Below, piece by piece: positions 26,100 to 42,098 of a DNA stretch of 47,668 bases. Source of the stretch: Sphaerochaeta sp. (GTDB lineage Bacteria; Spirochaetota; Spirochaetia; Sphaerochaetales; Sphaerochaetaceae); assembly GCA_018399495.1 (NCBI GenBank), contig JAGYOG010000020.1, positions 1 through 47,668 on the forward strand, read 5' to 3'. A program made the position numbers and the translations under genes. Positions within the stretch are counted from its first letter, which is position 1, and the number at the start of each line of letters is the position of its first letter. The notes under the pieces are model-generated. The model did not search any database. It was not told where the DNA came from and saw only the letters and a list, made by a program, of their open reading frames with translations.

Positions 26100-27061
26100 A
26101 CCCGTTTCACTTTTGTATCGATGATGTTGTTGATGATCATGACGGTAATCATGACAAAACCCCAGATGGCTGTTGTAAGGAAAGAACTGACCCGAAGTAG
26201 ATTGAATCCACTGGAGAGGAGCTGTAATGTAACCAGGGAGACAACAACCCCGGAGACCCTGCCGAACCCCCCGTCACTGCTTACCCCGCCCAGTACTGCC
26301 GCCAGGATGGTAACCAGCAGGTATGAGTTTCCATACCCTGATTTTGCTGAGTTGAATCGGCTGATCATGACCAATGCTGCAACTCCGGAGCATAGGCCTG
26401 AGACCAGATAGGTTCGCATCAATACCGCATTGTTGTGAATTCCGGAGAATTTTGTTGCCATGGAATTTGAGCCAATCATATACATACTGAAGCCCGTCCG
26501 GGTTTTTCTCAGCAGTACTGACATTGCAATTGCACAGCCTATGAATATCAGCAAGGGGAAGGGGATTCCCCATACGCTCCCATTTCCGATGAAGAGGACA
26601 GCAGGGGAAAATCCCGAGATTACATAGCCCTCGGTGACCACGATTGCAACGCCATTGAACAGTGTCATAGTGCCTAGCGTGGCAAGTATCGGAGTGATGC
26701 CTACATAGGCAACCAGAAATCCGTTGAAGAGGCCGATACTTCCCGAGACGAGGAGGCAAACCAGCATTGCAGTGAGAATGCCCATGGTAGGGGATCCCTC
26801 CATTGCTTTGAGGATCAAGGCAGCACTTATACCCGCCATGTTGGCCGTTGCAATGATGGAGAGGTTGATGCCTCCAGTGATCATGACCACCATCATGCCC
26901 AAGGTCAGGATTCCAAGTTCAGGAAGCTGGAATGCCATACCCTTGAGATTGTTGTAGGTAAGGAACATGCCAGAATTCATCACAATCATGATCAAGGCAA
27001 CCAGGACCATTATGACAAGTAATACGGTTGTTTCATTCTTCTTTATCCTTGGTAGCTTCAT
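26096..27061 (-). CDS. Sugar ABC transporter permease (RbsC/RhaQ type), second
   Basis: A 321-residue permease of the BPD_transp_2 family with eight to ten hydrophobic segments and the typical GGVSSDGGFGRVSG motif near the C-terminus. GGGAGG precedes ATG 27061. It overlaps the end of the other permease gene and the start of rhaB, so it is tightly coupled to both. It presumably forms a heterodimer with its neighbour to import rhamnose or a related deoxyhexose. Confidence 0.9.
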   Translation of the reverse strand: MKLPRIKKNETTVLLVIMVLVALIMIVMNSGMFLTYNNLKGMAFQLPELGILTLGMMVVMITGGINLSIIATANMAGISAALILKAMEGSPTMGILTAMLVCLLVSGSIGLFNGFLVAYVGITPILATLGTMTLFNGVAIVVTEGYVISGFSPAVLFIGNGSVWGIPFPLLIFIGCAIAMSVLLRKTRTGFSMYMIGSNSMATKFSGIHNNAVLMRTYLVSGLCSGVAALVMISRFNSAKSGYGNSYLLVTILAAVLGGVSSDGGFGRVSGVVVSLVTLQLLSSGFNLLRVSSFLTTAIWGFVMITVMIINNIIDTKVKRV

Positions 27062-28095
27062 GAGATGCCTCCCTGTACACTCAGTTTTTCTTGTGGTGAT
27101 TGTTCCTGTACATCGATGAGGGAGGTGACCTTGCTCTTTTTAGCCTTCCAGGAACTGAATCCAACGCTTATGATGATGACCAATCCCACAAACACATCGT
27201 ACCAGACAGCTGGAATCTTCATGAGTGTCATGCCGTTCTGTACGATGGCTAGGAGCATGACCCCGAGGAACATGCCAAACACAGTGCCGACACCTCCCGC
27301 GAGACTCGCTCCTCCCAGTACTACGGCAGCTATGACGTTCAGTTCTTTTCCCACGATTGAGTTCGGGGCAACAGTCTGGACCAGAAGCGCCTGGACAATC
27401 CCTGCGATGGCTGCCATCGCACCCATGAATGCATATACGAATATACGCATGAAACGGACACGGATGCCGACCCGCTGTGCGGAGATTACATCCCCTCCGA
27501 TGGCGTAGATGCTCCTTCCAAGTCTTGTATAGATCAAAAGGAGGCTTGCAAGCACCATGAGAGCGAACCAGATGACCGTGATGATGGAGATTCCGTAGGG
27601 CAGACCGTCCTTCGTGTAAAGGGTCAGGACACGGATGTCGGCAAAGGAGCGGAAATATGGGGGCAAGGTATAGAGCCACTTCCCCTTGGAGAAGACGATA
27701 AGGAGACCATAGTAGAGATTCATGGTCGCGATGGTCGTGATGATTGGGGGGATGGAGAAACGGTCTATCAAATATCCGTTGATCGCTCCGAGCAAGATTC
27801 CGATAAAGATAGCCATGAGGAATGCGAATATCATAGATCCACCGATCTTCAGGCAGACAATCACCGTCAGGTATTCAGCGATTGTAGCGGTCGCGGCGAA
27901 GGAGATGTCGATTCCCCCGGATATGAGGACAAAGAGAACCCCGATCGCCAAGATCCCAATGAATGCATTGCTCTTGAGCAGGTCAAACATATTCTCAAGT
28001 GTCAGGAAGTTTGGGTTGATACTGGTAATAATGAGACTAAATATGATTATGATAGCCAATACATAGGTCTCATGCCGCTTAAGCAATTGTTTCAT
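27058..28095 (-). CDS. Sugar ABC transporter permease (RbsC/RhaP type), first
   Basis: A 345-residue permease of the same family, with multiple membrane segments and the conserved VVLGGASLAGGVGTVFGMFL region near residue 280. GAGGTGA lies ahead of ATG 28095. It follows the ATPase gene by 12 bases. A hydrophilic C-terminal tail after residue 318 is unusual in length but otherwise unremarkable. Confidence 0.9.
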   Translation of the reverse strand: MKQLLKRHETYVLAIIIIFSLIITSINPNFLTLENMFDLLKSNAFIGILAIGVLFVLISGGIDISFAATATIAEYLTVIVCLKIGGSMIFAFLMAIFIGILLGAINGYLIDRFSIPPIITTIATMNLYYGLLIVFSKGKWLYTLPPYFRSFADIRVLTLYTKDGLPYGISIITVIWFALMVLASLLLIYTRLGRSIYAIGGDVISAQRVGIRVRFMRIFVYAFMGAMAAIAGIVQALLVQTVAPNSIVGKELNVIAAVVLGGASLAGGVGTVFGMFLGVMLLAIVQNGMTLMKIPAVWYDVFVGLVIIISVGFSSWKAKKSKVTSLIDVQEQSPQEKLSVQGGIS

Positions 28096-28107
28096 AGCTT
28101 CACCTCA

Positions 28108-29610
28108 TCATACAGCATGGGAGTCGATGAACGATTGCATCTCGTCCTCCGTCGTCCTGGATGATTCGAATTCCCCGATGATTCGACCCCGATTCATAAC
28201 CAATACGCGGTTGCAGTTGTAGAGAACCTCCGGTATCTCATCACTGATTATCATGATTCCCATACCATCTCTTGCAAGCTCCTTGATAATGGTGTGGATG
28301 CTCGACTTTGCCGCAACATCGATCCCTACCGTTGGATTGTCCAGGATGAACAGCTTGGGAGCGGTAGCGATCCATTTTGCGAGAACTACACGCTGCTGGT
28401 TTCCCCCTGAGAGGGTCCTCACAGCAGACTCGGCAGAAGGGATTTTTATGCCAAGCTCATCGACCAGCGCTGCCACGCTCTCTTGCAGTCTTTTCTCATC
28501 CAGAAGACCAAACTTTGTGAGATGGTCATCCAGGATGGTCATCACTATGTTCTTTGCGATGGATTGTTCAAGGATCAATCCTTCGACTAGGCGGTTCTCT
28601 GGAACGTAGGCCACTCCCGCATCCACCACATCCCCCACTGAGTTCAGGTTGAGTTTTTTTCCGTTCAGGTAACACGTTCCACTGGTCGGGGGATTCAAGC
28701 CGAACAGGGCCAAGGCAAGTTCGGTTCGGCCGGATCCCAGGAGGCCGGTAATACCGACTATCTCTCCTGGGTACACCGTCAGGTCTATATCTGCAAAGTT
28801 ATGCTCTTTCTGTAGCTGAGAGCACTGCAGTAGAGGTTGCCCTGATGAGGCGAGTGATACATGGTAGGGTGTATAGGAGGTATTTGCTCCAGTCATGTGG
28901 AACTCGATCTTTTTGTCATCGAGCTCAGAGCTGGGGAAACACCCTGTTTTTTCCCCATCACGAAGTATGGTTACCCGGTCTGCTACCTCGATCAGTTCAT
29001 TGAGTTTATGGCTGATGAACAGAGTGGCAATCCCTTTCTTTTTCAGGTCCTTGATCACCGCAAGCAGTGCATTAACCTCTTTCTTGGTGAGAGCCGTGGT
29101 TGGTTCATCGAGTATCAGCAAGCGTACATCCCGGGTCAAGGCCCTGCTGATAGCAACCAGTTGCTGGTCAGCCATGGTAAGATCGGCCACCGTGGTATCC
29201 AGGGGGAGTGTGACGCCGATTTTTTTCATTGCATTGAGGGCGATCTCATGGTTTCCCTTCCAAGAGATGAAATGACTCTTTGCCGCCATAGTCTCCCCCA
29301 TGGAAATATTTTCCTTGACGGAGAGGTTCGGGAACAGAGACAGATCTTGGTAGATTACCTGAATTCCATAGCGAAGTGCATCCATCCTTGAAAGATGATG
29401 GCATGCATTCCCGTCAATGGTGATTAGAGAACCCTCATCAGGTTGCTCTACACCGCTAATGATTTTCACCAGTGTGGACTTGCCCGATCCGTTGGTGCCT
29501 GCCAAGCAATGTATCTCTCCTTCCCTGATGGAGAAGTCTATATCATGCAAGGCCTGTACCCCCGCGTAGCGTTTATTGATGTGCTGCATTGAGAGAAACT
29601 GATTTTCCAT
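28108..29610 (-). CDS. Sugar ABC transporter ATP-binding protein with two NBDs (RbsA/RhaT type)
   Basis: A 500-residue tandem ATPase. I chose the ATG at 29610; in-frame ATGs at 29622 and 29646 are possible but less family-like. NBD1 has Walker A GTNGSGKST (38-46), signature LTMADQQLVAISRAL and Walker B LLILDEPT. NBD2 has the degenerate Walker A ITGLLGSGRTEL usual in this family, signature LSGGNQQRVVLAKW, and ILDNPTVGIDV, where Asn replaces the usual catalytic Glu. It energises the two permeases encoded next to it. Confidence 0.9.
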   Translation of the reverse strand: MENQFLSMQHINKRYAGVQALHDIDFSIREGEIHCLAGTNGSGKSTLVKIISGVEQPDEGSLITIDGNACHHLSRMDALRYGIQVIYQDLSLFPNLSVKENISMGETMAAKSHFISWKGNHEIALNAMKKIGVTLPLDTTVADLTMADQQLVAISRALTRDVRLLILDEPTTALTKKEVNALLAVIKDLKKKGIATLFISHKLNELIEVADRVTILRDGEKTGCFPSSELDDKKIEFHMTGANTSYTPYHVSLASSGQPLLQCSQLQKEHNFADIDLTVYPGEIVGITGLLGSGRTELALALFGLNPPTSGTCYLNGKKLNLNSVGDVVDAGVAYVPENRLVEGLILEQSIAKNIVMTILDDHLTKFGLLDEKRLQESVAALVDELGIKIPSAESAVRTLSGGNQQRVVLAKWIATAPKLFILDNPTVGIDVAAKSSIHTIIKELARDGMGIMIISDEIPEVLYNCNRVLVMNRGRIIGEFESSRTTEDEMQSFIDSHAV

Positions 29611-29650
29611 AATCCCACTCATTTGTTGGTCTAGCCATTCATACAAAGAA

Positions 29651-29686
29651 AGCTCCGGAACACCACTTTCATACTATTCCGGAGCT
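29651..29686 (-). terminator. Intercistronic stem-loop after binding-protein gene
   Basis: A perfect 10-bp stem, AGCTCCGGAA and TTCCGGAGCT with a 16-base loop, lies just after the binding-protein stop and before the ATPase gene. On the minus strand TTCTTTGTAT follows. It is a likely partial terminator or mRNA-stabilising element that sets binding protein above ATPase. Confidence 0.7.
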
Positions 29687-29701
29687 GTGAAAAACTATAG
29701 G

Positions 29702-30700
29702 TTAGAATCCATAACTATCGACATTATCCTTGGTAATATCCACCATGGCATTCACCATGATCACATCACCCTCAACAGCAACAGCTCCGATACCAGGTAT
29801 TTCCTTTAAATCAGCCAGCTTATTTCCCTCGAGAAGGTACTTTGCCACCCAATTCAATGCGAAACCTGCATCCTTTGGATCCCAGAGGATGCCCTTTGTG
29901 AGTGATCCTTCCTTGAGATAGGGTGCTGCATGCCCAGGAATGACGGTACCGACAACGGTAACCTTTCCTGCCAATCCTTTTTCCTTCAGTGCCTGCGCTG
30001 CTCCCGGAGGTCCCAAGCTTCCAAATCCAACGATACCATCAAGGTCGGGATAGGTCTTGAGCAACTCCAGAGTTTTCTGTTTGGCCAGTTCCTGGTCTTC
30101 TCCACAGGGAATCCTGCTGGTTACCAATTCCAGGTCGGGGTATTTTTCCTGTGCGTACTTAATACCTTCATCAGCCCAAAGATTGTGCAATGGTACGGTG
30201 AGCCCGCCGACGAAGATTGCATACTTCCCAGATGTTCCCATTCCTTCTACCAGCATATCCCAGGTCCTTCGGGCAAAGGCAATGTTGTCGATCAATTCAA
30301 TATCGACATCCTTGCCTGCCTGGTCAGGGGATTCATGGGTGAGGATCAGAATTCCCTGGTCCCTTGCTTTCTTGAACACGGGTTCAAGTGCCGTTGCATC
30401 ATTTGGTGTGATACAGATGGCATCTACATTCTTGCTGATCAGGTCCTCGACCATCTTCACCTGCTGTGCAGGGTCAGCGTCAGAGGGGCCAATCTGGTAT
30501 GCATTCAAGCCTAATTCCTCCTTGGCTTGCACTACACCCTCTTCCAGTCGGTTGAACCAAGGTATTCCTGTGATTTTCACGACTGTTACCACTTCAAATG
30601 CATCATCCGCTACAGCTTTCTGTCCTTGCGAAAATGCCATTGGAGTAGCGAAGAGTACTACCAGAACGACTAGGATCCCCAGTCTCATACTCTTGTACAT
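29702..30700 (-). CDS. Rhamnose-type ABC transporter substrate-binding protein (Peripla_BP_4)
   Basis: A 332-residue periplasmic protein. ATG 30700 follows AAGGAGGA and gives a leader, MYKSMRLGILVVLVVLFATP then MAFSQGQ. Upstream in-frame codons to 30778 lie in the aldolase gene and are ignored. The mature part has type I binding-protein features: ITGIPWFNRLEEGVVQAKEE near the start, LISKNVDAICITPND, and VVGTVIPGHAAPYLKEG. It resembles RhaS/LsrB proteins. The kinase and aldolase nearby make rhamnose a better guess than autoinducer-2. Confidence 0.88.
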   Translation of the reverse strand: MYKSMRLGILVVLVVLFATPMAFSQGQKAVADDAFEVVTVVKITGIPWFNRLEEGVVQAKEELGLNAYQIGPSDADPAQQVKMVEDLISKNVDAICITPNDATALEPVFKKARDQGILILTHESPDQAGKDVDIELIDNIAFARRTWDMLVEGMGTSGKYAIFVGGLTVPLHNLWADEGIKYAQEKYPDLELVTSRIPCGEDQELAKQKTLELLKTYPDLDGIVGFGSLGPPGAAQALKEKGLAGKVTVVGTVIPGHAAPYLKEGSLTKGILWDPKDAGFALNWVAKYLLEGNKLADLKEIPGIGAVAVEGDVIMVNAMVDITKDNVDSYGF

Positions 30701-30746
30701 ACATATCCTCCTTATTGTTTCCCAGCATATGCCGGGACAATCTCCG

Positions 30747-31409
30747 TTACTTGTCCTGCCCGTAGTGGTTGCGTGCAAAGTCTTGCATTGCCCGCATATC
30801 CTCGGTACTGATAACCTGAGGGTCGCCCAGAATCTTGGCCAGGATGAAGGTATGGGCTGATTTTTCTACCACGTGGCATACTTTCAGAGCCATGGGTATG
30901 TCTGTCCCTACGCAGATGGTGCCATGGTTTGGAACCAGTACGGCATTTCTGTCCCCCAATGCCTTCACCACGTTGCCGGCAAGTTCCGGGGTGCCGGGTA
31001 GTGAGTAGTCTGCATTGATGATCTTGTCACCAACCAGTTGGACAAAATCCTCACTGATTCCCGGAATATCCTGCCTGGTGACCCCGAAGGCACTTGAGTA
31101 GACAGGGTGGGTGTGGATGACGGCGTTCACATCGCTTCGTGCGTTCATAATGCTGATGTGGAAGTGGTACTCGATGGAGGGTTTTCTATGTCCCCATACA
31201 ATCTCCATGTTCTTGTTCATGACCACTATGTCATCTTCTTGTATCTGGTTATACGGCATGCCGCTGGGTTTGATGTATATCAGTCCTGTCTCCGTGTCGC
31301 GGACACTGATGTTTCCCCATGTCCCCACGGTAAGGCCCATTGCCACCATGGTATTCCCTGCGTCGACAACCATCTGCTTGTATGACTTCTTGATTCTGCT
31401 ATCTTCCAT
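30747..31409 (-). CDS. Class II aldolase (L-rhamnulose/L-fuculose 1-phosphate aldolase type)
   Basis: A 220-residue zinc aldolase, predicted to split the ketose 1-phosphate made by the kinase into dihydroxyacetone phosphate and L-lactaldehyde. Zinc ligands His99, His101 (IHTHP) and His162 (NHGTICVG) and catalytic Glu80 (KPSIEYHFH) are all present. Their spacing is the same as in E. coli FucA (73, 92, 94, 155). Its length is also closer to FucA than to the larger E. coli RhaD, so specificity rests on the rhaB context. AAGGGGA precedes ATG 31409. It is first in the operon and divergent from the DeoR gene. Confidence 0.87.
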   Translation of the reverse strand: MEDSRIKKSYKQMVVDAGNTMVAMGLTVGTWGNISVRDTETGLIYIKPSGMPYNQIQEDDIVVMNKNMEIVWGHRKPSIEYHFHISIMNARSDVNAVIHTHPVYSSAFGVTRQDIPGISEDFVQLVGDKIINADYSLPGTPELAGNVVKALGDRNAVLVPNHGTICVGTDIPMALKVCHVVEKSAHTFILAKILGDPQVISTEDMRAMQDFARNHYGQDK

Positions 31410-32793: not shown

Positions 32794-33111
32794 ATGAGTT
32801 CAAAACAAAATACATTTGAAGTAGTTGCCGAGGGGGTGAAGCGGAAGATTCTCTCCTACAATGAGACAATCATGGCAGTGGAAGTCCACTTTGAAGCAGG
32901 TGGAGTTGGTTCCGTTCACTCCCATCCCCATACCCAGTTGACCTATGTATTAGATGGCTCTTTCACCTTTACCATTGATGGAAAGCCTGTAGAGGTTTCA
33001 AAGGGAGATACCCTTGTCTTTGAACCAAATGTAAAGCATGGGACCACCTGCCTGGAGAAGGGATTGGTTCTGGATGTATTCACTCCATACAGGGAAGATT
33101 TTGTGGGGTGA
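32794..33111 (+). CDS. KdgF-like cupin protein
   Basis: A 105-residue single-domain cupin. ATG 32794 has AAAGGAG upstream; earlier in-frame codons are rejected. Metal ligands are likely His42, His44 or His46, Gln48 (SVHSHPHTQL) and His82 (VKHG). The C-terminal LDVFTPYREDFV is typical of KdgF-type cupins, which linearise unsaturated uronates from pectin or alginate. It stands alone between the DeoR gene and the converging dehydrogenase gene, so its pathway here is uncertain. A remnant of a near relative lies at 42017-42083. Confidence 0.82.
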   Translation: MSSKQNTFEVVAEGVKRKILSYNETIMAVEVHFEAGGVGSVHSHPHTQLTYVLDGSFTFTIDGKPVEVSKGDTLVFEPNVKHGTTCLEKGLVLDVFTPYREDFVG

Positions 33112-33199: not shown

Positions 33200-34159
33200 C
33201 TATGATACGATATTCTTCGGATTGCCTTCCATGAATGCCTTTAGATTATCTGCAGCCAGACCCATCAGACGTTTTCTTGCACTTTCTGTTGCCCAGGAAA
33301 TATGGGGAGTGATGTAGCAGTTCTTTGCCGTAAGCAATGGATTGTTTGCCTTGATTGGCTCTGTCGAAACCACATCCAAACCAGCACCAGCGATATGTCC
33401 GCTATTGAGTGCATCAGCCAGATCCTGTTCACAAACAAGAGGGCCTCTGCTGGTATTGATTAAGAAACTACCTTGTTTCATGATCGAAATTTTCTCTTTG
33501 TTCAGAAACTCCTTGTTTTGCTCTGTAAGTGGGCAGTGTAAGCTGATGACATCCGAGGACGAAAGCAATGTATCGAGATCAACAAAATCAACACCTGTTT
33601 CTTCATCTGGTGCAGAGATGAATGGATCATAGGATACAACATGCATCCCGAAAGAGCGGGCTATCTGTGCTGTTGCTTTCCCGATTCTTCCGTAGCCAAC
33701 AAGGCCCAATGTCTTGCCCTCTAGTTCTATGAGGGGGTACTCCCAGTAGCAGAAATCAGGGCATGCCTGCCATTTGCCCTTCGCAACACCCTCAGCATGT
33801 TCAGCAACATGCTGGGTGAGATGCAATAGGTGGGCAAATACCATCTGGGCCACTGAACGGGTGCCATAGGTAGGAATATTAGTGACAGTAATTCCTCTCT
33901 CAGCAGCAGCTTGTACGTCAACAACATTAAAACCTGTTGCCAGAACACCGATGTACTTCAGTGAAGGAAGTTTATCAAGTGTTTTAGCCGTGATAGGGGT
34001 TTTATTGGTGAGTAAATAAGTAGCGTCTTGTGCTCTCTCGACGATGCAATCTTCGTCAGTTCTTTCATACACACAAAGTTGCCCCAGATCCTCAAATGCT
34101 TCCCAGCTCATATCTCCTGGATTCAAGGTAAATCCATCCAAAACCACAATTTTTTCCAT
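33200..34159 (-). CDS. D-2-hydroxyacid dehydrogenase (hydroxypyruvate/glyoxylate reductase type)
   Basis: A 319-residue NAD(P)-dependent enzyme. The Rossmann motif GYGRIG lies at 155-160 with Asp178 (SYDPF) near the cofactor ribose, favouring NADH. Catalytic Arg238 (NTSRGPLV), Glu267 (DVVSTEP) and His286 (TPHISW) are all present. AGAGAGGA precedes the ATG. It is last in the operon. In this family the usual substrates are hydroxypyruvate, glyoxylate or related 2-oxoacids, so it may reduce the 2-oxoacid left after the transketolase and isomerase steps. That role is inference. Confidence 0.9.
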   Translation of the reverse strand: MEKIVVLDGFTLNPGDMSWEAFEDLGQLCVYERTDEDCIVERAQDATYLLTNKTPITAKTLDKLPSLKYIGVLATGFNVVDVQAAAERGITVTNIPTYGTRSVAQMVFAHLLHLTQHVAEHAEGVAKGKWQACPDFCYWEYPLIELEGKTLGLVGYGRIGKATAQIARSFGMHVVSYDPFISAPDEETGVDFVDLDTLLSSSDVISLHCPLTEQNKEFLNKEKISIMKQGSFLINTSRGPLVCEQDLADALNSGHIAGAGLDVVSTEPIKANNPLLTAKNCYITPHISWATESARKRLMGLAADNLKAFMEGNPKNIVS

Positions 34160-34201
34160 ACGTATCCTCTCTATCTTGATTAGACTTTGCCTGTATACAC
34201 T

Positions 34202-35710
34202 CTATTTCTTTGAAAACTTCTCTTTTACTTTTGCGAACATCCCCGTACTACTGAGAATAGTAGCAACGATAACCAAGAAGAGGATAAGCGCTACAGGTCG
34301 CTGGAAAATTGGAGCAAAGCTTCCCTGTGATACCATCAAAGCACGTCTTAGGTTCTCATCACACATGGGGCCAAGTATTACACCAATTACCAAGGGAGCG
34401 ATAGGATATCCCTGTTCTGTAAGAATATATGCAATAACACCTACGATGAGCATCAAGTAAAGATTGAACTCATTCAAGCCTATTGCGTAGGAGCCAATAA
34501 TGCAGAGAAGTCCAATAATCGGCATAAAAATCGAGGTTGGGATTCTCAGTACTTTTACAAACTGCTTGGCAAGCAGCATTCCACATATCCACATAGCTAC
34601 TGATGCAAGCAAAAGAATAGCGGTGATGTTGGGTATGAATTCTGGGTTTTCAAAGGTAAGCATGGGGCCAGGGTTAACACCATGAAGCATCAAGGCTCCA
34701 AGGAGCATTGCTGCAGGTGGACTTCCAGGGACACCAAGGCTCAGCAAGGGAATCATCGCTCCACCAATACATGCATTATTTGCTGTTTCCGTACAGATAA
34801 CTGCTTCTACCGATCCGTTACCATATTCCTCAGGATGTTTTGAGGCTCTTTTCGCTGTTCCATAAGAGACCCAACCTGCAATATCCTCGCCAATTCCCGG
34901 TACAGATCCGATTCCAACACCGATCAAGCTTGACCGGAGAATAACGGGTATATGCTTGAAGATGGTCTTGAAGTCCGGAAGGATCTTTCCGATGCTTTTC
35001 ATCCCGGTAACTGAAAAATTGTCCTTGAGAACGCTCATGATTTGAGGTATTCCAAATGCACCTATAAGCACAGGTACTACTTCAATACCACTATCAAGTT
35101 GAGAAATGCCAAAGGTGAATCTTGGGTACACTTGCAGACTGTCACGTCCAATTACTGATAGAAACAATCCAAGGAATCCTGCTATCCATCCCTTGTAGAC
35201 AAGATCAGGGCTTGTGAGTGACCCACTGATGATAATGCCGAAAAGTGCAAGAAGGAAAAACTCAAAGGAAGTGAACTGCAGTGCCAGCTCAGAGATTACC
35301 GGAGACAGGGTGATCACAAAGAACATGCCGATGAATGTTCCAATGGCTGAGGCAGTGGTAGTGAGTCCCAAGGCTCTTCCTGCAAACCCTTTGCAAGCTA
35401 ATGGATACCCATCCATTGCTGTAGCCGCCGAAGCAGCTGTACCCGGGATATTTACCAAGATTGCCGTGTATGATCCACCGTAGACACCTCCAACATAGAT
35501 ACCCATCAAGGCAATCATGGCCGTTGAGGTGTTCATGCCATAGGTGAGCGTGGTCAATAGTGCAACACCAAGGGTGGCCGTTAGTCCTGGGGTAGCACCA
35601 AATATGATACCCATGATCACCGACCCGAAGAGGACGAGTAAACCAATAGGATCTGTCAGCAAATAGCCAATATGTACTAAAAAAGAAAGCAATGATTCCA
35701 ACATTTGCAT
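34202..35710 (-). CDS. tctA: Tripartite tricarboxylate transporter, large permease TctA
   Basis: A 502-residue protein with about 11-12 membrane segments and the TctA glycine-rich motifs (VIMGIIFGATPGLTATLGVA near residue 35, SVPGIGEDIAGW near 270, and SLGVPGSPPAAMLLGALMLH near 330). GGAG precedes ATG 35710. It forms the ion-coupled import channel with TctB, fed by TctC. This transporter type takes carboxylates, so the operon substrate is probably an acid rather than a neutral sugar. Confidence 0.93.
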   Translation of the reverse strand: MQMLESLLSFLVHIGYLLTDPIGLLVLFGSVIMGIIFGATPGLTATLGVALLTTLTYGMNTSTAMIALMGIYVGGVYGGSYTAILVNIPGTAASAATAMDGYPLACKGFAGRALGLTTTASAIGTFIGMFFVITLSPVISELALQFTSFEFFLLALFGIIISGSLTSPDLVYKGWIAGFLGLFLSVIGRDSLQVYPRFTFGISQLDSGIEVVPVLIGAFGIPQIMSVLKDNFSVTGMKSIGKILPDFKTIFKHIPVILRSSLIGVGIGSVPGIGEDIAGWVSYGTAKRASKHPEEYGNGSVEAVICTETANNACIGGAMIPLLSLGVPGSPPAAMLLGALMLHGVNPGPMLTFENPEFIPNITAILLLASVAMWICGMLLAKQFVKVLRIPTSIFMPIIGLLCIIGSYAIGLNEFNLYLMLIVGVIAYILTEQGYPIAPLVIGVILGPMCDENLRRALMVSQGSFAPIFQRPVALILFLVIVATILSSTGMFAKVKEKFSKK

Positions 35711-35719
35711 ACCATACTC

Positions 35720-36529
35720 CTATCTCAATGCGTAGTAGATTGAATTGCAGATTCTGTCAAAGAATAGTCCTTCTACCGGTAGAGGAACGAGAAGTGCATA
35801 TCTGAACACTGCAGTTACGATAACAGGAACCGCAATTGATAGCAGCAGTACAATCCGTAATTTTTTCTTGGTCTCTGTATCTTTTATCGCTTCTTTCCGC
35901 AACACGATGTAGATGGATACAGTCATAACGAACACAATAATGTCGAGAGAAAATTCAAAAGCCTGTACAAGGAGTATGTCAAGATTGCTCCAAGCAATAC
36001 TACAGAGTACCAGTGTCCATGCAATAAGGAGTCTTCCCGCTTTTCTAAAGAGGGTGGCCTGATTTAAATAAAACATACCCATGATGCTCAACAAGAAGAA
36101 GATTAACGAGATGAGAAAATCAACTCGAGGGATGAGCAAGAAGATCAGAATGAAAAATACCAGAACAACGATGGATACCCGGAATTGGGATATCTGTCTT
36201 GCCAGTTTCTTTGAAACCTCTACGCTGTCAGAGGTTGATGTAGTATGACTGTTTTTCTTTGATACGAATGCAACCACATCATCTATGACTCCTCTTGCAC
36301 CCTTGCTTACGATTGAGTTGATGAGAAGAATGCAGCTGAGGATCAGCAAACCAATGCCGATGATTATTGGGAGAAGGGCTGGTGAGACATACCACACATT
36401 TTGGACTCCCCCATAATTACCTTTCATAGGCATACGGGAAGCTCCAATCAAAATTCCAATAGAAGCACAAATTAGAATCAAGCTGGTGATGAAATCTCGC
36501 TTTCGCATGGTAACTTTGTCTTCAATCAT
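35720..36529 (-). CDS. tctB: Tripartite tricarboxylate transporter, small permease TctB
   Basis: A 269-residue membrane protein, longer than the roughly 150-170 of typical TctB. It has one segment near residue 15, another at about 50-70, a hydrophilic loop at about 75-110, and then several further segments. The start AAGGAAAA-spaced ATG 36529 is reasonable; ATG 36508 is an alternative. It lies nine bases before tctA. Identification rests mainly on size, topology and position between TctC and TctA genes. Confidence 0.8.
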   Translation of the reverse strand: MIEDKVTMRKRDFITSLILICASIGILIGASRMPMKGNYGGVQNVWYVSPALLPIIIGIGLLILSCILLINSIVSKGARGVIDDVVAFVSKKNSHTTSTSDSVEVSKKLARQISQFRVSIVVLVFFILIFLLIPRVDFLISLIFFLLSIMGMFYLNQATLFRKAGRLLIAWTLVLCSIAWSNLDILLVQAFEFSLDIIVFVMTVSIYIVLRKEAIKDTETKKKLRIVLLLSIAVPVIVTAVFRYALLVPLPVEGLFFDRICNSIYYALR

Positions 36530-36560
36530 AGATTGTTTTCCTTACGTCTGGATTTCAATA

Positions 36561-36582
36561 GCAGGGGTAAAGATACCCCTGC
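36561..36582 (-). other. Stem-loop upstream of tctB
   Basis: GCAGGGGTA and TACCCCTGC pair across four bases in the tctC-tctB gap. No T-run follows. It may help set tctB translation or protect the mRNA 5' end left by termination just upstream. Confidence 0.45.
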
Positions 36583-36596
36583 GTTTCGGATTCAAG

Positions 36597-36640
36597 AAAA
36601 AAGCCATGGGCAAGGTTCGAAAACATTCTGCTCCATGGCT
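36597..36640 (-). terminator. Internal terminator/attenuator after tctC
   Basis: On the minus strand AGCCATGG and CCATGGCT pair around a 23-base loop and are followed by TTTTTT, ten bases after the tctC stop. It is a good intrinsic-terminator form and probably lowers expression of tctB, tctA and the dehydrogenase relative to tctC. Confidence 0.75.
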
Positions 36641-36649
36641 CTTTATAGA

Positions 36650-37663
36650 CTATGGTCTCACAATACCCAATGTTTCTGGGTCGACAGTTGCAGACCCCAG
36701 ATCTTTCAGCGTATAACCGAAGACTGCTTCAAGATTCTTGAAGATTGCATTCGCCTCTGGTCCTCTTTTACCTGAAAGCACATAGAAGTTCTTCTTCCCG
36801 AATTCTTTTACCGCTTCGGACTGCATTGCCTTGTCAAATGCTGCATACAACGTATCTTTCACATTCTGTGGTGCTTCAGCTTTTACTGCAAACCCAATTG
36901 CCTGTGAAAGAGGAAGATAGTTGCCGAGAGAAGGGAAGGCATCAAATGTAGATACCAAAGAACGGCCATCAAGATCAAATGCGTCCTCAACAAGAACTCC
37001 CAGAGGTCTCAGTTTTCCAGCCATGATTAGCTGAGCTTGTTCAGCAACAGAGGTGATGACAACATCAACTTCCCCAGTCATTGCTGCATTCTGTGATGGT
37101 GCAGAGCCTGGATAAGGAATGAAGTTGAATTCAATTTCTGTTCCTTGCTCAAAAGCAAGCAAATTCAAATGGTGTATTGATCCTGCTCCACCTGCGGCAG
37201 CCTTGATCGCTTGAGGATTGGCCTTAGCTGCAGCTACAAGTTCTTCAATTGTCTGGTAAGGAGTATCAGGAGTGACAGAGATTACATCTGGGGAGCCTCC
37301 AATAATGAAGATATCCCAAACGTCCATTTTGTTTTCCCAGCCACCCATTACACCTGCTGTAACATTTGACTCTGAAAGACCGCAAAGCGTATAACCATCA
37401 GCTTTCTTGGAAAATGCATCGAGCATTCCAATCGATCCCGAGACCCCACCGGTCTTGTTCACTACATTGACGTTTACGCCCAATTCTTTTGACATCTCTG
37501 CCATAACCACTCGGTTACAGACATCTGTACCACCACCTGCGCCCCAGACAACCACTGTTGTGATGTCACGTTCAGGATAGGCTACTTCACCTTGTCCTTG
37601 TGCAATCAATGGGAAAATCATTACCATTGAAACAATAAGTACCGAAACAATCATTTTTTTCAT
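36650..37663 (-). CDS. tctC: Tripartite tricarboxylate transporter binding protein TctC
   Basis: A 337-residue periplasmic protein with the leader MKKMIVSVLIVSMVMIFPLI followed by AQGQG. The mature start YPERDITTVVVWGAGGGTDV matches the carboxylate-binding loop region of the Bug/TctC family. AAAGGAGAGG precedes the ATG. It captures the carboxylate for TctAB. Specificity cannot be read directly. Its operon mates, a transketolase and a TIM-barrel isomerase, point to a sugar acid rather than citrate. Confidence 0.92.
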   Translation of the reverse strand: MKKMIVSVLIVSMVMIFPLIAQGQGEVAYPERDITTVVVWGAGGGTDVCNRVVMAEMSKELGVNVNVVNKTGGVSGSIGMLDAFSKKADGYTLCGLSESNVTAGVMGGWENKMDVWDIFIIGGSPDVISVTPDTPYQTIEELVAAAKANPQAIKAAAGGAGSIHHLNLLAFEQGTEIEFNFIPYPGSAPSQNAAMTGEVDVVITSVAEQAQLIMAGKLRPLGVLVEDAFDLDGRSLVSTFDAFPSLGNYLPLSQAIGFAVKAEAPQNVKDTLYAAFDKAMQSEAVKEFGKKNFYVLSGKRGPEANAIFKNLEAVFGYTLKDLGSATVDPETLGIVRP

Positions 37664-37714
37664 TTTGTTCCTCTCCTTTTAATTTCTCATGAAACGCTTG
37701 TTTTTCATAGGGAA

Positions 37715-38692
37715 TCAACAATCTCTCAACAAGAATTGTTCTTCAATGAATTTCCACGTTTTCATGTAGTTTCCTTCATTCATAAGCTGTGCAAGCAAAT
37801 TCCGATCACAGTCTGCAACAAGATTCCAGATTTTATTTGTCCACCTTGCATTAGCTGCGAAGGTTTCTTTCGGATCCATTCTGGTGGGAGACGTGTCAGA
37901 GGTGAGGTAATCGGAGTATCCGAATTCCTGCAGATAATAGATGAATTCGATATATTCCAGGAAATGTTTTGATGCCACCATGTAGTCCCAGTCCCATGTC
38001 CCATCATTGTCATTAATATGTACGTAGTAGGAGAACCTGCTGGATGCGATGAGGCTCAATGCCTCAGCTGGATTCTCTTTTCCATACATGGAATGGCCAA
38101 AATCGAGCGTAATACCAATGTTTTCATTTCCAATTTTCTCCAAAAGGTAAAGGGCTTTTGAAGCGGAGTCGATATAGCATTTACCTCTCACTTCATTAGG
38201 CTTGTATTCAATGAAGAGTGGCATCTCTGGTTTGTATGCTCCTGCTTCAGCGAAGCCTTCCAACAGATAATTCCATGCTTTTCTATAATCCTGTTGGAAA
38301 CTAAATTCATAGCCATCACCAAGAGGACAACACTGAACTTTGTTGGCTCCAACCTGTTCTGCATAGTCCTTGGCATCACAGATCATTGATACAGCTTTTT
38401 TCCTGATATTCGGATCTTCGGACGTGAGTCCACCCAGAATGAACTCAGGCTCATTCTTTACATTGACATTAATGGCAGCAATATTCAGAGAATATTTTGC
38501 TAGAAGGGCCTTTAATTCATCACTTGAGGGAACCTCATAAGGATAGACTACCTCAACACCATCAATATTTTCGATCGTGGAAAGCAATGCAAACTTTTCT
38601 TCTAAGGTTTTCGGGGTGTTGTATGATCGGAATCGATCAGTTGTCTTTCCCAGAAAACCAGTAATTACTGCGCTCTTTACTACCTTGTTCAT
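37715..38692 (-). CDS. Xylose isomerase-like TIM barrel (sugar isomerase/epimerase or decarboxylase superfamily)
   Basis: A 325-residue AP-endonuclease-2 fold protein. Probable metal site residues are Glu162 (FIEYKP), Asp197 with His200 (TLDFGHS), His225 (YVHINDNDG) and Asp266 (TSDTSP). The last is usually Glu in ketose 3-epimerases. Start ATG 38692 overlaps the previous stop by one base (TAATG) and has AAAGGAG upstream. It lies between the transketolase and transporter genes, so it probably prepares the imported compound for ketol transfer. Isomerase, epimerase and decarboxylase activities all occur in this fold, and I cannot choose between them. Confidence 0.8.
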   Translation of the reverse strand: MNKVVKSAVITGFLGKTTDRFRSYNTPKTLEEKFALLSTIENIDGVEVVYPYEVPSSDELKALLAKYSLNIAAINVNVKNEPEFILGGLTSEDPNIRKKAVSMICDAKDYAEQVGANKVQCCPLGDGYEFSFQQDYRKAWNYLLEGFAEAGAYKPEMPLFIEYKPNEVRGKCYIDSASKALYLLEKIGNENIGITLDFGHSMYGKENPAEALSLIASSRFSYYVHINDNDGTWDWDYMVASKHFLEYIEFIYYLQEFGYSDYLTSDTSPTRMDPKETFAANARWTNKIWNLVADCDRNLLAQLMNEGNYMKTWKFIEEQFLLRDC

Positions 38693-39651
38693 TATGTTAG
38701 CTCCTTTTTCTTTCTGGCTAGAGTGCTCTCAATAGCTTTCGTGATGCATCGTGCTGAAAGGCCGTATGCGTCCAATACCTGTAAATAGTCTCCACTTTCT
38801 GCAAAGGTATCGTCCAACCCTATATGGGAGAACGGGACTGAACAATCGATTTTTGCGAGGTAATGAGGGACGGCATATCCCAAACCATTTTTCTTCTGGT
38901 GGTTTTCAGCAACCACAACTGCACCGGTCTTTTTCACTGAGGCAAGAAGAGTCTCTTTATCAATTGGCTTGATGCTGTACATGTCGATTACCTCGACAGA
39001 GATTCCTTTTTCTTCCAGGAGGGAAGCCGCTTCCAAAGATTGAAAAACCATATCCCCATAGGTTACTAGGGTTATATCGCTTCCTTGTCTAACCACATGG
39101 CTACCGCCAATCTTGAAGGTGTATGAATCATCATAGATTTCATAGAGGGGATCTCGCATGAGGCGTACAAAGACAGGACCGGGAGTCTCCAAGGAAAGAT
39201 CTAGGATTTTTGCCGCAGAGACAGAGTCTGCCGGACAGAGTACTTTCATGTTGGGAAACGATGACACAATCGCCATATCTTCAGTAGCTTGGTGCGTTGC
39301 CCCATCAATGGCTGCTGTTACTCCACCATGAGAGGAGAGAAATTTTACATTCAAGTTTGGATAGCATACATAGGTGCGCATCGACTCAACTGCTCTCATG
39401 GAAAGGAATACTCCGTATGAGCTTACGATCACCGGCCTTCCATCAGCTGCCAAACCTGCTGCTGTACTGACCATATTTGCTTCGGCAATTCCCATATTGA
39501 AGTATCTACTAGGAAATGCTTTTCCAAAGAGGTGCGTGTAGGTGGAATACCCGATATCTGCTTCTAGGACGACAAAGTCTGTGTGGTCTTTCCCATATTC
39601 CACCATCCGCTCACTAAATGCCTTTCTTGTCGGCTTTGTTGCTTTTTTCAT
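38692..39651 (-). CDS. Transketolase C-terminal subunit (Pyr plus C-terminal domains)
   Basis: A 319-residue half-transketolase. The Pyr domain has the catalytic Glu57 that activates thiamine diphosphate (FNMGIAEANM) and the conserved SSHGGVTAAIDGATHQATED stretch. The Transketolase_C domain follows from about 190. It starts two bases after the N-terminal subunit stop and must work with it as a complex. Split transketolases that sit in catabolic operons often act on special ketoses rather than in the general pentose phosphate pathway. The surrounding transporter fits that. Confidence 0.92.
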   Translation of the reverse strand: MKKATKPTRKAFSERMVEYGKDHTDFVVLEADIGYSTYTHLFGKAFPSRYFNMGIAEANMVSTAAGLAADGRPVIVSSYGVFLSMRAVESMRTYVCYPNLNVKFLSSHGGVTAAIDGATHQATEDMAIVSSFPNMKVLCPADSVSAAKILDLSLETPGPVFVRLMRDPLYEIYDDSYTFKIGGSHVVRQGSDITLVTYGDMVFQSLEAASLLEEKGISVEVIDMYSIKPIDKETLLASVKKTGAVVVAENHQKKNGLGYAVPHYLAKIDCSVPFSHIGLDDTFAESGDYLQVLDAYGLSARCITKAIESTLARKKKELT

Positions 39652-39653
39652 GA

Positions 39654-40508
39654 TTATGCCTCAGTTCCTTTGATTTCAAGAATTGCTTGTTTGTACTCCT
39701 GTTCATTTGGAGCCTTTCCATGCCACTGGCGGATATTTTCCATAAAACTGACACCTTTTCCCTTTATTGTCTGTGCCACAATACATATGGGTTTATTTCC
39801 TTGTATCAGCCTTGCTTTCTCAAGTGTCAGGACAATATCCAGCATGTTGTGGCCATCCATTTCCAAGACATCCCAGCCAAATGATCTAAACTTGTCGCTG
39901 ATTGATCCCATTGGCATAATCTCATCAGTAAAGCCGTCCATCTGCAGTCGGTTTCTGTCAATAATTGCAATAAGGTTGTGCAAGGAGAACTTTGCCGCTG
40001 CGGCAGCCGCTTCCCAGTTTTGTCCTTCATTGAGTTCCCCATCACCAATTAATACATAGGTAAAGAAGTCTTTTTGGGTTAGTCTTCCTTCCAGAGCCAT
40101 TCCTACTCCAATACTGAGTCCATGCCCCAGTGATCCTGTGGTCATGTCAATACCTGGTGTTTTCTGTTTTACTGGATGACCTTGGAGGATGCTGTCAAAT
40201 TTTCTCAATGTATCGAGCTCTGCTATAGGGAAATACCCTTTCAATGCCAAGGATGCATACTGTACAGGACACGCATGACCCTTCGAGAGTACAAATCGAT
40301 CTCGATCTTTCCAGGATGGATTGTTGGGATCTATACGCATAAAATCAAAATAGAGCGCAGTGACTATATCGGTAGCGGAGAGAGCTCCTCCTGGATGACC
40401 TGATTGTGCTTTGTAAATCATATCTACAATGTGGAATCTGACGTTTTTAGCTTCAGCTTCCAATCTTTCTATTCGGCTGTTCATTGGTTCGTTGGAGATT
40501 TGTCTCAT
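39654..40508 (-). CDS. Transketolase N-terminal subunit (thiamine diphosphate-binding)
   Basis: A 284-residue subunit. ATG 40508 is chosen because AGAGGA lies just upstream; the in-frame ATG 40523 overlaps that ribosome site. GHPGG (37-41), SKGHACP (75-81), GDGELNEG (155-162) and a downstream Asn in IIDRNRLQMDG form the thiamine diphosphate/Mg site. It is the first gene of the minus-strand operon, divergent from the GntR pair across GTATAC operators. It transfers a two-carbon ketol unit together with the C-terminal subunit. Confidence 0.92.
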   Translation of the reverse strand: MRQISNEPMNSRIERLEAEAKNVRFHIVDMIYKAQSGHPGGALSATDIVTALYFDFMRIDPNNPSWKDRDRFVLSKGHACPVQYASLALKGYFPIAELDTLRKFDSILQGHPVKQKTPGIDMTTGSLGHGLSIGVGMALEGRLTQKDFFTYVLIGDGELNEGQNWEAAAAAAKFSLHNLIAIIDRNRLQMDGFTDEIMPMGSISDKFRSFGWDVLEMDGHNMLDIVLTLEKARLIQGNKPICIVAQTIKGKGVSFMENIRQWHGKAPNEQEYKQAILEIKGTEA

Positions 40509-40549
40509 GCCATTCCTCTTCATATTTCAATTGTTCCAACTGAAATTAT

Positions 40550-40695: not shown

Positions 40696-41349
40696 ATGTA
40701 TAAAGTAATTGCTGAAGACTTGAACCAACAAGTGTATGAATCACTAAGGTATATGATCCTTAGTGGAGAATTGGTCCCTGACCAGAAGCTTGTACAAGAA
40801 GAGCTTGCACAACGTCTGCAAGTGTCAAGGACACCTCTTCTTTCAGCTTTTGCTAAGCTTGAACGAGAAATGTTGCTCACCTCTATTCCAAGAAGAGGGT
40901 ATTATGTCCGCTCGGTCAATCTGAATGAATTATTGCAGATTTATGAAATACGTCTACGTCTGGAACCCTTGGGGGCATACGAAGCAGCGTCTAATATCAA
41001 TGAAGAAGAGATTGAAAAGTTAATGATAAAGACTGAGGCCTTGGGATTATTGGATGATGAGAAGTTGAATAGTCAATTTCGTTCGTATGATTATGCTTTT
41101 CACTCAACTATCATGCAAATGAGCAATAATCCATTCTTGGAAAAAATGGTTTCTTCCTTCAATCTAGTGACTCTTGGAAATCTAACAGGAATGTTACGAA
41201 ATGTGCGAGATAGTCTTGCTGAGCATACTGTCATTCTGCGTTCAATCTTGACGCATGATTCTGAAAAGGCCGAACAAGCAATGTTCAAACATGTTGAAGT
41301 TGCAAAGAAGCGAATTGAACAGTATATTCTGGAAAAGGATTGTTCATGA
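40696..41349 (+). CDS. GntR family regulator, FCD type (first of pair)
   Basis: A 217-residue protein. The winged HTH occupies about residues 10-70 (YESLRYMILSGELVPDQKLV, then QRLQVSRTPLLSAFAKLERE). An all-helical FCD ligand domain follows (about 80-215), with metal-site-like Asp and His residues in RSYDYAFHSTIMQM. It is divergent from the Tct/transketolase operon and is the likely ligand-responsive repressor. FCD regulators commonly bind organic acids or sugar acids, consistent with a TctC substrate. Its stop overlaps the start of the next GntR gene. Confidence 0.92.
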   Translation: MYKVIAEDLNQQVYESLRYMILSGELVPDQKLVQEELAQRLQVSRTPLLSAFAKLEREMLLTSIPRRGYYVRSVNLNELLQIYEIRLRLEPLGAYEAASNINEEEIEKLMIKTEALGLLDDEKLNSQFRSYDYAFHSTIMQMSNNPFLEKMVSSFNLVTLGNLTGMLRNVRDSLAEHTVILRSILTHDSEKAEQAMFKHVEVAKKRIEQYILEKDCS

Positions 41350-41978
41350 TTCCTGTAAAGAAAAGCTCACTGAAAGATCTTGTATATCAACAGATCAAGT
41401 TAATGATTTCAAACAAGGACTTATTGCCTGGTGATAAAGTCAATAGGAAGCAGCTGGCTCAGCTTTTAGGGGTCAGCCAAACCCCTGTACAAGATGCCAT
41501 CGTAAGGCTGATTCAGGAAGGGTTGTTTGAGGATAAGAAATCCAATGGGATTTATGTAAGAGTTTTTACTAATAAAGATATGCAAGATATTTTTGCCTTA
41601 CGCGCAGGCATTGAAGGAATTGCATTACGTCTCTGTATATCCAAAGGATGTGAAGAGATTGAAGACCTCTTCAAGTTGTTCGATTCCTTTACTGTCCCCA
41701 TGACTGATTCTGAAGAGATTGCAAGATACCAGAAAATAGATAGAATGTTTCATGAGCAAATCATTACAAGATCAGGAAATGAATTGATGAAGAATTTCGT
41801 GAAAGATTTTAGCTTTATATTACGATGTTATCACAAGGGGTTATTGAGACATCCTAATGAAACATTGCCAGAACATCTTGCGATTATCCAAGCTGCCCGG
41901 GAAAAAAATCCCGAGAAGGCTCAAAATCTCTTGATCGCTCATCATATGGCTTCCTATGAGAGGCTATCTGACCTCTAA
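41346..41978 (+). CDS. GntR family regulator, FCD type (second of pair)
   Basis: A 210-residue regulator from ATG 41346 in an ATGA overlap with the preceding gene; AAAGGA lies seven bases upstream. The HTH is at about 5-70 (LLGVSQTPVQDAIVRLIQEG). The FCD domain at about 80-205 includes YQKIDRMFHEQIITRSGNEL and EHLAIIQAAREKN. It differs clearly in sequence from its neighbour, so it is not a recent tandem copy. Together the two could form a heteromer or respond to two ligands. Confidence 0.92.
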   Translation: MIPVKKSSLKDLVYQQIKLMISNKDLLPGDKVNRKQLAQLLGVSQTPVQDAIVRLIQEGLFEDKKSNGIYVRVFTNKDMQDIFALRAGIEGIALRLCISKGCEEIEDLFKLFDSFTVPMTDSEEIARYQKIDRMFHEQIITRSGNELMKNFVKDFSFILRCYHKGLLRHPNETLPEHLAIIQAAREKNPEKAQNLLIAHHMASYERLSDL

Positions 41979-42016: not shown

Positions 42017-42083
42017 CCACCTGCCTGGAGAAGGGAGTGGTCCTGGATGTATTCACTCCTTACAGGGAAGATTTTGTAGTGTG
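42017..42083 (+). pseudogene. 3'-end relic of a KdgF-like cupin gene
   Basis: The sequence encodes the last 21 residues of a cupin (TCLEKGVVLDVFTPYREDFV plus stop) and matches 33044-33111 at most positions, with mainly silent changes. No upstream portion of the gene survives. It lies in the 120-base gap between the second GntR gene and the converging ArsR gene. It is a deletion scar or a transferred fragment. Confidence 0.8.
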
Positions 42084-42098
42084 ATTATGTAGCCCACA

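Follow-up and report, generated by a model that had tools for sequence, protein, structure and literature searches.

A conserved split-transketolase operon of Sphaerochaeta and its possible role in the kinase-free use of an acid sugar

The window analysed here is a stretch of 47,668 nucleotides of Sphaerochaeta sp. (assembly GCA_018399495.1, contig JAGYOG010000020.1) and corresponds to one entire contig of a 2.6-Mb genome. It carries seven tightly packed minus-strand genes at 33200-40523, encoding a split transketolase (TK, with the N-terminal half TKn and the C-terminal half TKc), a xylose-isomerase-type TIM-barrel protein (hereafter TIM), the three subunits TctC, TctB and TctA of a tripartite tricarboxylate transporter, all present, and a D-2-hydroxyacid dehydrogenase (2HADH). 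In transcription order from TKn, the intergenic gaps are 2, -1, 51, 120, 9 and 42 nt. An earlier, sequence-only reading had delineated these genes as one operon, and all its open reading frames (ORFs) and families were recovered with Pfam and NCBIfam (TctABC with Pfam alone, NCBIfam being uninformative there); its boundary at 33200 was correct, whereas that at 40508 lies 15 nt inside the longest TKn frame. As it had stated, no sugar kinase, phosphatase or aldolase occurs inside the seven-gene operon. It had also failed to match the gene set to a described pathway, in agreement with the open-access literature, in which, judged by title or start of abstract and with subscription journals outside the search, no paper was recognised as describing it.

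Conservation and organization of the locus

The comparison of genome neighbourhoods proposed with that reading showed that a block of ten genes is kept in identical order, with 91-99% protein identity, in two other genomes of the genus (loci L037 and L042), while the outer flanks of the block differ between the three. The block includes two overlapping GntR-family regulators, divergent from the operon, which are also found in many of the wider loci described below. As the order is kept within the genus and the core is found again at dozens of loci in other phyla, the gene set is no chance assembly; the initial observation is confirmed and conserved.

Table 1. Features of the operon and of its immediate surroundings in the window
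Feature	Position	Strand	Supporting match
Transketolase N-terminal half (TKn, thiamine diphosphate domain), 289 aa	39654..40523	-	PF00456, 213 bits
Transketolase C-terminal half (TKc, pyrimidine and C domains), 319 aa	38692..39651	-	PF02779, PF02780
Xylose-isomerase-type TIM barrel (TIM), 325 aa	37715..38692	-	PF01261
TctC, solute-binding protein	36650..37663	-	PF03401, 97.9 bits
TctB, small membrane subunit	35720..36529	-	PF07331, 43.4 bits
TctA, large membrane subunit	34202..35710	-	PF01970, 445 bits
D-2-hydroxyacid dehydrogenase (2HADH)	33200..34159	-	PF02826, PF00389
GntR-family regulator 1, divergent	40696..41349	+	NCBIfam matches to GntR-type regulators
GntR-family regulator 2, divergent, overlapping regulator 1	41340..41978	+	PF00392, PF07729
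KdgF-family cupin, convergent with the operon end	32794..33111	+	7zyb (BeKdgF)
Detached 68-nt copy of the 3' end of the cupin gene	42017..42084	+	Direct repeat of 33044-33111

Enzyme families and modules associated with the TIM barrel

The solved structure closest to TIM, by sequence and by structure, is 3ktc, which we take to be the D-apiose isomerase ApsI (25% identity; mean pLDDT confidence of the predicted TIM model, 93.6). Both metal sites and the catalytic lysine of the xylose-isomerase type are present and, among the eight catalytic positions, seven are identical in 82/82 sequences and H200 in 81/82. This full set favours an isomerase over a decarboxylase or one-metal epimerase, so that the sugar acid which the sequence-only reading supposed to be "isomerised or decarboxylated" is probably isomerised. 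TIM displays the pocket residues K79 and C122 where two ApsI-like proteins (named from their context) have Y79 and W122; these two lie outside the 82-member TIM family, which does not appear to be orthologous to ApsI. Among the relatives compared, the changed pair is common only to those located beside carboxylate importers. We interpret the family as an acid-sugar branch of the xylose isomerase family and predict that TIM is a two-metal aldose-ketose isomerase of an acid sugar.

The TK is split between adjacent genes for the thiamine diphosphate half and the pyrimidine/C half, and the best solved relative of TKc is the split TK chain 6yaj of Carboxydothermus. Five TK N-terminal genes, all above the Pfam cut-off, are present in the genome; this rules out the TK of the window as the sole housekeeping one and bears out its earlier description as dedicated. 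At the four sugar-phosphate positions compared, TKc carries R9, S36, H108 and a later R (R-S-H-R), against A-T-N-R in AptB of Escherichia coli, whose apt locus is named in PMC13001218. The two TK halves share 42% and 31% identity with AptA and AptB, respectively. As the ordinary phosphate residues are kept, an ordinary sugar phosphate is the probable acceptor. The head-group motif of the sulfofructose TK is RAFDR (PMC11659671), and assignment of the window's TK as a sulfo-TK was rejected on the same four positions, which do not include that of the F.

The remaining four TK pairs in the genome display R-S-H-R (one), R-V-N-R (one) and R-A-D-R (two). The R-A-D-R pairs, at L040 and L041 (G000:C6 and G000:C40), resemble RAFDR, and one lies beside a ribulokinase-like gene. 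A second split TK of the genome (L038, G000:C56, 4121-8787), from the same TKc clade as that of the window, is directly behind three genes which by eye resemble a TRAP carboxylate importer. A third (L039, G000:C12, 3768-10598) is accompanied by three genes TRAP-like by eye, a transaldolase-like protein, a GntR regulator and a cupin 30% identical to that of the window, and could possibly represent another acid-sugar TK route.

2HADH has the catalytic and NAD domains of D-2-hydroxyacid dehydrogenases. Its scores of 325 bits against NCBIfam PRK06487 (cut-off 448) and 227 bits against the glyoxylate reductase model (cut-off 455) are below the equivalog level for hydroxypyruvate or glyoxylate reductases, and place it in the class which holds both. 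Its solved relative, 5tx7, has no named function.

Relatives of TIM were searched in one genome per species. Among 121 found, the best 80, whose loci were fetched, are 56-73% identical to TIM and belong by label to about twelve phyla, including Spirochaetota, Thermodesulfobacteriota, Planctomycetota, Bacteroidota, Kiritimatiellota, Verrucomicrobiota, Atribacterota and Gemmatimonadota; most come from metagenome-assembled genomes (MAGs), and single phylum labels may be wrong. The nearest named relatives of TIM indicate that the window is probably of spirochaete origin. Locus counts refer to 76 of these 80, no TIM ORF having been called in L060, L079, L086 and L094, and neighbour families were identified from one or two examples each by profile or structure search. 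The families found within eight genes of TIM are GntR (45 loci), TctA (44), TK (37), DUF1537 kinase (27), 2HADH (22), a second TIM barrel (21), PanB (19), a lyxose-isomerase-like cupin (17) and BKACE (13). Rarer importers, counted within 7 kb, are of the TRAP type (DctM-like large subunit, 9 loci) and of the major facilitator superfamily (8).

Three alternative lower modules, which had escaped the sequence-only reading, accompany TIM: TK, an acid-sugar kinase with PanB, or DhaK, DhaL and RpiB. Within 7 kb, 2HADH occurs in 22/34 loci with TKc and 0/42 others, and PanB in 1/34 and 18/42, with DUF1537 alongside in 19/19; DhaK is found in six loci, all with RpiB and none with TKc. Many contigs are short, and the pattern is the same in the 46 loci with at least 3 kb on both sides (2HADH in 18/25 TKc loci and 0/21 others; PanB in 1/25 and 15/21; a single DhaK locus). 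The Fisher values for these associations ignore relatedness. The best TIM tree, with module labels on 68/82 members, requires 7 changes of module, and the well-supported branches alone force three for TK and one for each of the others. The TKc tree comprises several supported clades, of 22 (including the own-genome paralogue on contig C56), 8, 11 and 2 rows; L125, counted as a TK locus on a weak (27%) opposite-strand TKc match, was left out of it. Two unlike classes of 2HADH are used among the 23 genes found at TIM loci (L060 and L079 included, outside the 76). Together, the several TKc clades and the two 2HADH classes suggest repeated recruitment of the same chemistry.

The PanB gene lies two or three genes behind TIM, after the DUF1537 acid kinase, in 19 loci (e.g. 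L101, 13286-14134). At least one further PanB is present in 11 of the 12 genomes tested among the 19; G147 has one copy, and G150, which may be a mixed MAG, has five full copies. The RpiB of the DhaK loci is 45-49% identical to that of the rhizobial oiaX locus L157, while OiaX, TpiA of L157 and its putative apionate oxidoisomerase, an identity which we presume from gene position, had no match in the 80 loci.

The second TIM barrel (predicted model from L063) matches ketose 3-epimerases with a TM-score of ~0.7. Neither this type of protein, in a search made without positive control, nor BKACE was found in the window genome, which is ~89% complete in 92 contigs, so that their absence is no proof; both were rejected as required steps in the window. 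In a sister family (L051-L054, L140), a TIM barrel of the kind found in the window is accompanied by another, TIM-like protein and by an importer, either TctABC or TRAP, with no TK nearby; Roseibium has an additional aldose epimerase.

Elsewhere in the window, an operon at 24663-31409 encodes a rhamnulokinase-like FGGY kinase (24663-26099), a sugar ABC importer whose binding protein is RhaS-like and, at 30747-31409, a class II aldolase; it is adjoined by a DeoR regulator and looks like a separate deoxy-sugar pathway. The kinase and the aldolase were unmatched in the 5-6 kb flanking the conserved block in L037 and L042. Promoter and terminator scans gave signals no better than in shuffles, and a PHROGs scan gave nothing informative.

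A tentative kinase-free pathway and its alternatives

From the gene set, families, catalytic residues and co-occurrences read in the sequences, we infer every reaction, acceptor and substrate of the following scheme. The operon could constitute a self-contained, kinase-free pathway for a carboxylated aldose, with a probability which we place at about 0.45. TctABC would take up the acid sugar, whose ring form may be opened by the KdgF-like cupin; TIM would shift a hydride between C2 and C1 to give a terminal ketose acid (HOCH2-CO-...); the TK pair would move C1-C2, as a glycolaldehyde unit, onto a sugar phosphate, the probable acceptor being glyceraldehyde 3-phosphate, and the xylulose 5-phosphate produced would enter central metabolism. 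The leftover 2-oxo acid would be reduced by 2HADH, regenerating NAD+, and the hydroxy acid would then be phosphorylated elsewhere or excreted. TIM would make a common intermediate of which the three lower modules dispose. As 2HADH is found only beside TK (22 of the 76 loci), it most likely reduces the TK product, and a role as upstream oxidase of the imported acid is disfavoured. The ketol transfer and 2-oxo acid reduction of the sequence-only reading are thereby supported, although the counts which place the reductase after TK are weakened by relatedness. Its remark that a non-phosphorylated ketol donor would be unusual was half right, since the sulfo-TK pathway uses one (PMC11659671).

As the product of an aldose-ketose isomerase and a TK donor, the intermediate needs a terminal HOCH2-CO group. 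TK must also leave something that 2HADH can reduce, the extra PanB, which moves hydroxymethyl groups, would be a further constraint, and DhaK, DhaL and the RpiB resembling that of an oiaX locus suggest that loss of CO2 yields a small ketose. On paper, a branched C5 acid satisfies all four. The ketose acid would most likely be a branched C5 beta-keto acid of the 3-oxo-isoapionate type, converted by TK into hydroxypyruvate and then into D-glycerate; its decarboxylation would give erythrulose, and loss of its hydroxymethyl group 3-oxotetronate for the acid kinase. A more specific proposal, which we regard as doubtful, is that of a widespread pathway in which the matching acid aldose is isomerised by this new acid-sugar branch, TK cleaves the free branched carboxylated ketose into hydroxypyruvate and xylulose 5-phosphate and, elsewhere, a catabolic PanB passes the hydroxymethyl group of the same intermediate to tetrahydrofolate.

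Several observations weigh against this pathway. We know of no natural source of a C3-carboxylated tetrose, the aldose form that it would start from. The TK has ordinary phosphate-binding residues and no sequence feature that demands a non-phosphorylated donor. Twelve of the 34 TKc loci are without 2HADH within 7 kb, some of them on short contigs, and with relatedness taken into account by phylogenetic pairs, the five independent contrasts (2HADH with TK in 1.6 on average, against in none) give no significant link. The PanB module forms a near-single clade, mostly of Thermodesulfobacteriota (2 changes, one origin possible), so that its exclusion from TK loci amounts to one or two events. Glycerate kinase, present in 23/26 genomes of the genus, does not discriminate; the other family of this enzyme occurs in one of the 26, which is not that of the window. 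The DUF1537, BKACE and aldo-keto reductase proteins of the loci were rejected as orthologues of those of rhizobial oiaX-annotated loci, with 21-29% identity at best and no match for most DUF1537. The nearest plasmid relatives of the DUF1537 kinases (38-43%) lie beside GarR-type dehydrogenases and gluconate permeases or class II aldolases, contexts of linear four-carbon acids. Finally, the KdgF-like cupin points to unsaturated uronates.

This cupin, which the sequence-only reading had missed together with the GntR pair, matches BeKdgF (7zyb; PMC11381880) with 99.7 bits and 45 identical residues over 100 aligned (counted from the printed alignment), retains its catalytic Asp102, Phe104 and Arg108 as aligned D, F and R, and adjoins the block in the window, L037 and L042. 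TctABC could accordingly take up a 4,5-unsaturated uronate from pectin or alginate, which the cupin would open, giving the keto-aldehyde DEH/DKI; TIM would replace KduI in forming 2,5-diketo-3-deoxygluconate, and TK would remove the C5-C6 ketol, leaving 2,4-dioxobutanoate to 2HADH. Such a route would involve a true aldose-ketose isomerisation and a TK product that is directly a 2-oxo acid, and a tripartite tricarboxylate transporter participates in alginate oligosaccharide uptake in Vibrio (PMC13390454). However, the cupin gene is convergent with the operon, and in all three genomes the block has the intact gene on one side and, on the other, a separate repeat of its 3' end (in the window, 33044-33111 and 42017-42084, 93% identical, spacing 8973; in L037 and L042, 61 and 68 nt, 85 and 88% identical). 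The repeat looks like an insertion scar, so that the adjacency may mark an insertion site; no recombinase was identified in the block. No ORF of the 80 wider loci had the window cupin as its best match (E 1e-6), the cupin was seen in the window's genus only, and the same three genomes also have KduI-family and 2-keto-3-deoxy-6-phosphogluconate (KDPG)-aldolase-family genes. The PanB and DhaK modules and the fate of the product would be hard to explain, and we consider the unsaturated-uronate route unlikely.

The pathway could also be a carboxylate analogue of the sulfo-TK route, to which we assign a low probability. A hexuronate would be isomerised to a ketouronate and cleaved by TK into a four-carbon aldehyde acid, which the same or another isomerase would convert into 3-oxotetronate; a second TK reaction would give glyoxylate, reduced by 2HADH to excreted glycolate. 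This would parallel the passage from sulfofructose through sulfoerythrose, sulfoerythrulose and sulfoacetaldehyde to isethionate (PMC11659671). The one scanned member of the commoner 2HADH class (L105) has the glyoxylate reductase model as best match (234 bits, cut-off 455), a second TIM barrel is present in 13/34 TKc loci, and the models nearest to the two scanned DUF1537 kinases are those of four-carbon acid kinases. Conversely, as no second TIM barrel of this type was found in the window genome (in the search without positive control), one enzyme would have to act on both C6 and C4 acids there; no uronate genes were seen in the loci whose neighbours were inspected, short of a scan against all families, and PanB would be unexplained.

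D-apionate degradation includes a decarboxylase of the xylose-isomerase family, and TIM might be such an enzyme, followed by the cleavage of erythrulose by TK to glycolaldehyde. The DhaK/DhaL/RpiB loci fit an erythrulose intermediate, but TIM has the complete two-metal hydride-shift site and the lysine, import of an unstable beta-keto acid would be required, since the loci hold no relative of the putative L157 apionate oxidoisomerase, and glycolaldehyde would need no 2HADH, which makes this reading very improbable. Least credible of all is an ordinary apiose-type pathway with its kinase elsewhere (e.g. the FGGY kinase of the window) and with TctABC and 2HADH as unrelated neighbours: the proximity of TIM to 3ktc, the resemblance of the TK halves to AptA and AptB and the pectin-gene plasmid on which a TIM relative occurs together with an FGGY kinase and a TK pair would fit it, but no ORF of the 80 loci has the window's FGGY kinase as its best match, no cluster found in three or more of them resembles an FGGY kinase, carboxylate importers are frequent (TctA in 44/76 loci, TRAP large subunit in 9/76), and the TKc and TIM pocket residues differ from those of AptB and of the two ApsI-like proteins. 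The plasmids concerned (L152, L153, L155) bear pectin-type genes, annotated in Croceibacterium and recognised by eye in Streptomyces, with an ApsI-like TIM barrel and a TK pair; the FGGY kinase is in Croceibacterium, with ~23 kb separating the TIM gene from the TK genes there.

The kinase-free pathway, if true, would extend the catabolic, as opposed to carbon-shuffling, use of split TKs from sulfosugars and apulose phosphate to a third setting. It would reveal a way for spirochaetes and sulfate reducers to consume an acid sugar without a priming kinase. The TIM family being coherent and common, it would also account for dozens of unassigned operons and for the extra PanB copies of sulfate reducers.

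Comparison with known systems

The sulfo-TK route (SqwGH, SqwI and a reductase) is known from Sphaerochaetaceae (PMC13219744) and shares with the operon an isomerase, the reduction of the leftover, the lack of a kinase and a split TK whose ketose is non-phosphorylated and anionic at one end, as proposed here for the operon. It differs by the RAFDR motif of its TK, by its sulfoacetaldehyde reductase and ABC importer, where the operon has 2HADH and TctABC, and by its sulfoquinovosidase and sulfoquinovose isomerase, which are not in the operon. Its isomerase SqwI, akin to RpiB, is not among the seven genes either.

Catabolism of 4,5-unsaturated uronates (KdgF, KduI, KduD, KdgK, Eda) likewise requires the aldose-ketose isomerisation of an acid sugar and has a KdgF, of which a family member lies beside the operon. 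KduI, which catalyses that isomerisation, belongs to another family than TIM, and the reductase, kinase and aldolase set, which TK would have to replace, is not in the operon.

D-apionate degradation proceeds through OiaK, OiaX or OiaC, LerK, LerI and DerI. Other loci of the TIM family resemble it by their DUF1537 kinase, DhaK, DhaL and RpiB; its rhizobial proteins are distant, except for RpiB, and OiaX and the putative oxidoisomerase were unmatched in the 80 loci. The D-apiose route (ApsI, AplK, AptAB) similarly combines a xylose-isomerase-family TIM barrel, the closest to TIM, with a split TK. The operon differs from it by the carboxylate importer, the added 2HADH, the K79/C122 pair, the limited identity of the TK halves and the absence of an AplK-type FGGY kinase, which is not a recurrent neighbour in the wider loci (for the apiose and apionate pathways, see PMC13001218 and PMC11747546). 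Since the defining features compared differ in each case, we liken the operon to the sulfo-TK and apulose-phosphate TK pathways and file it under neither.

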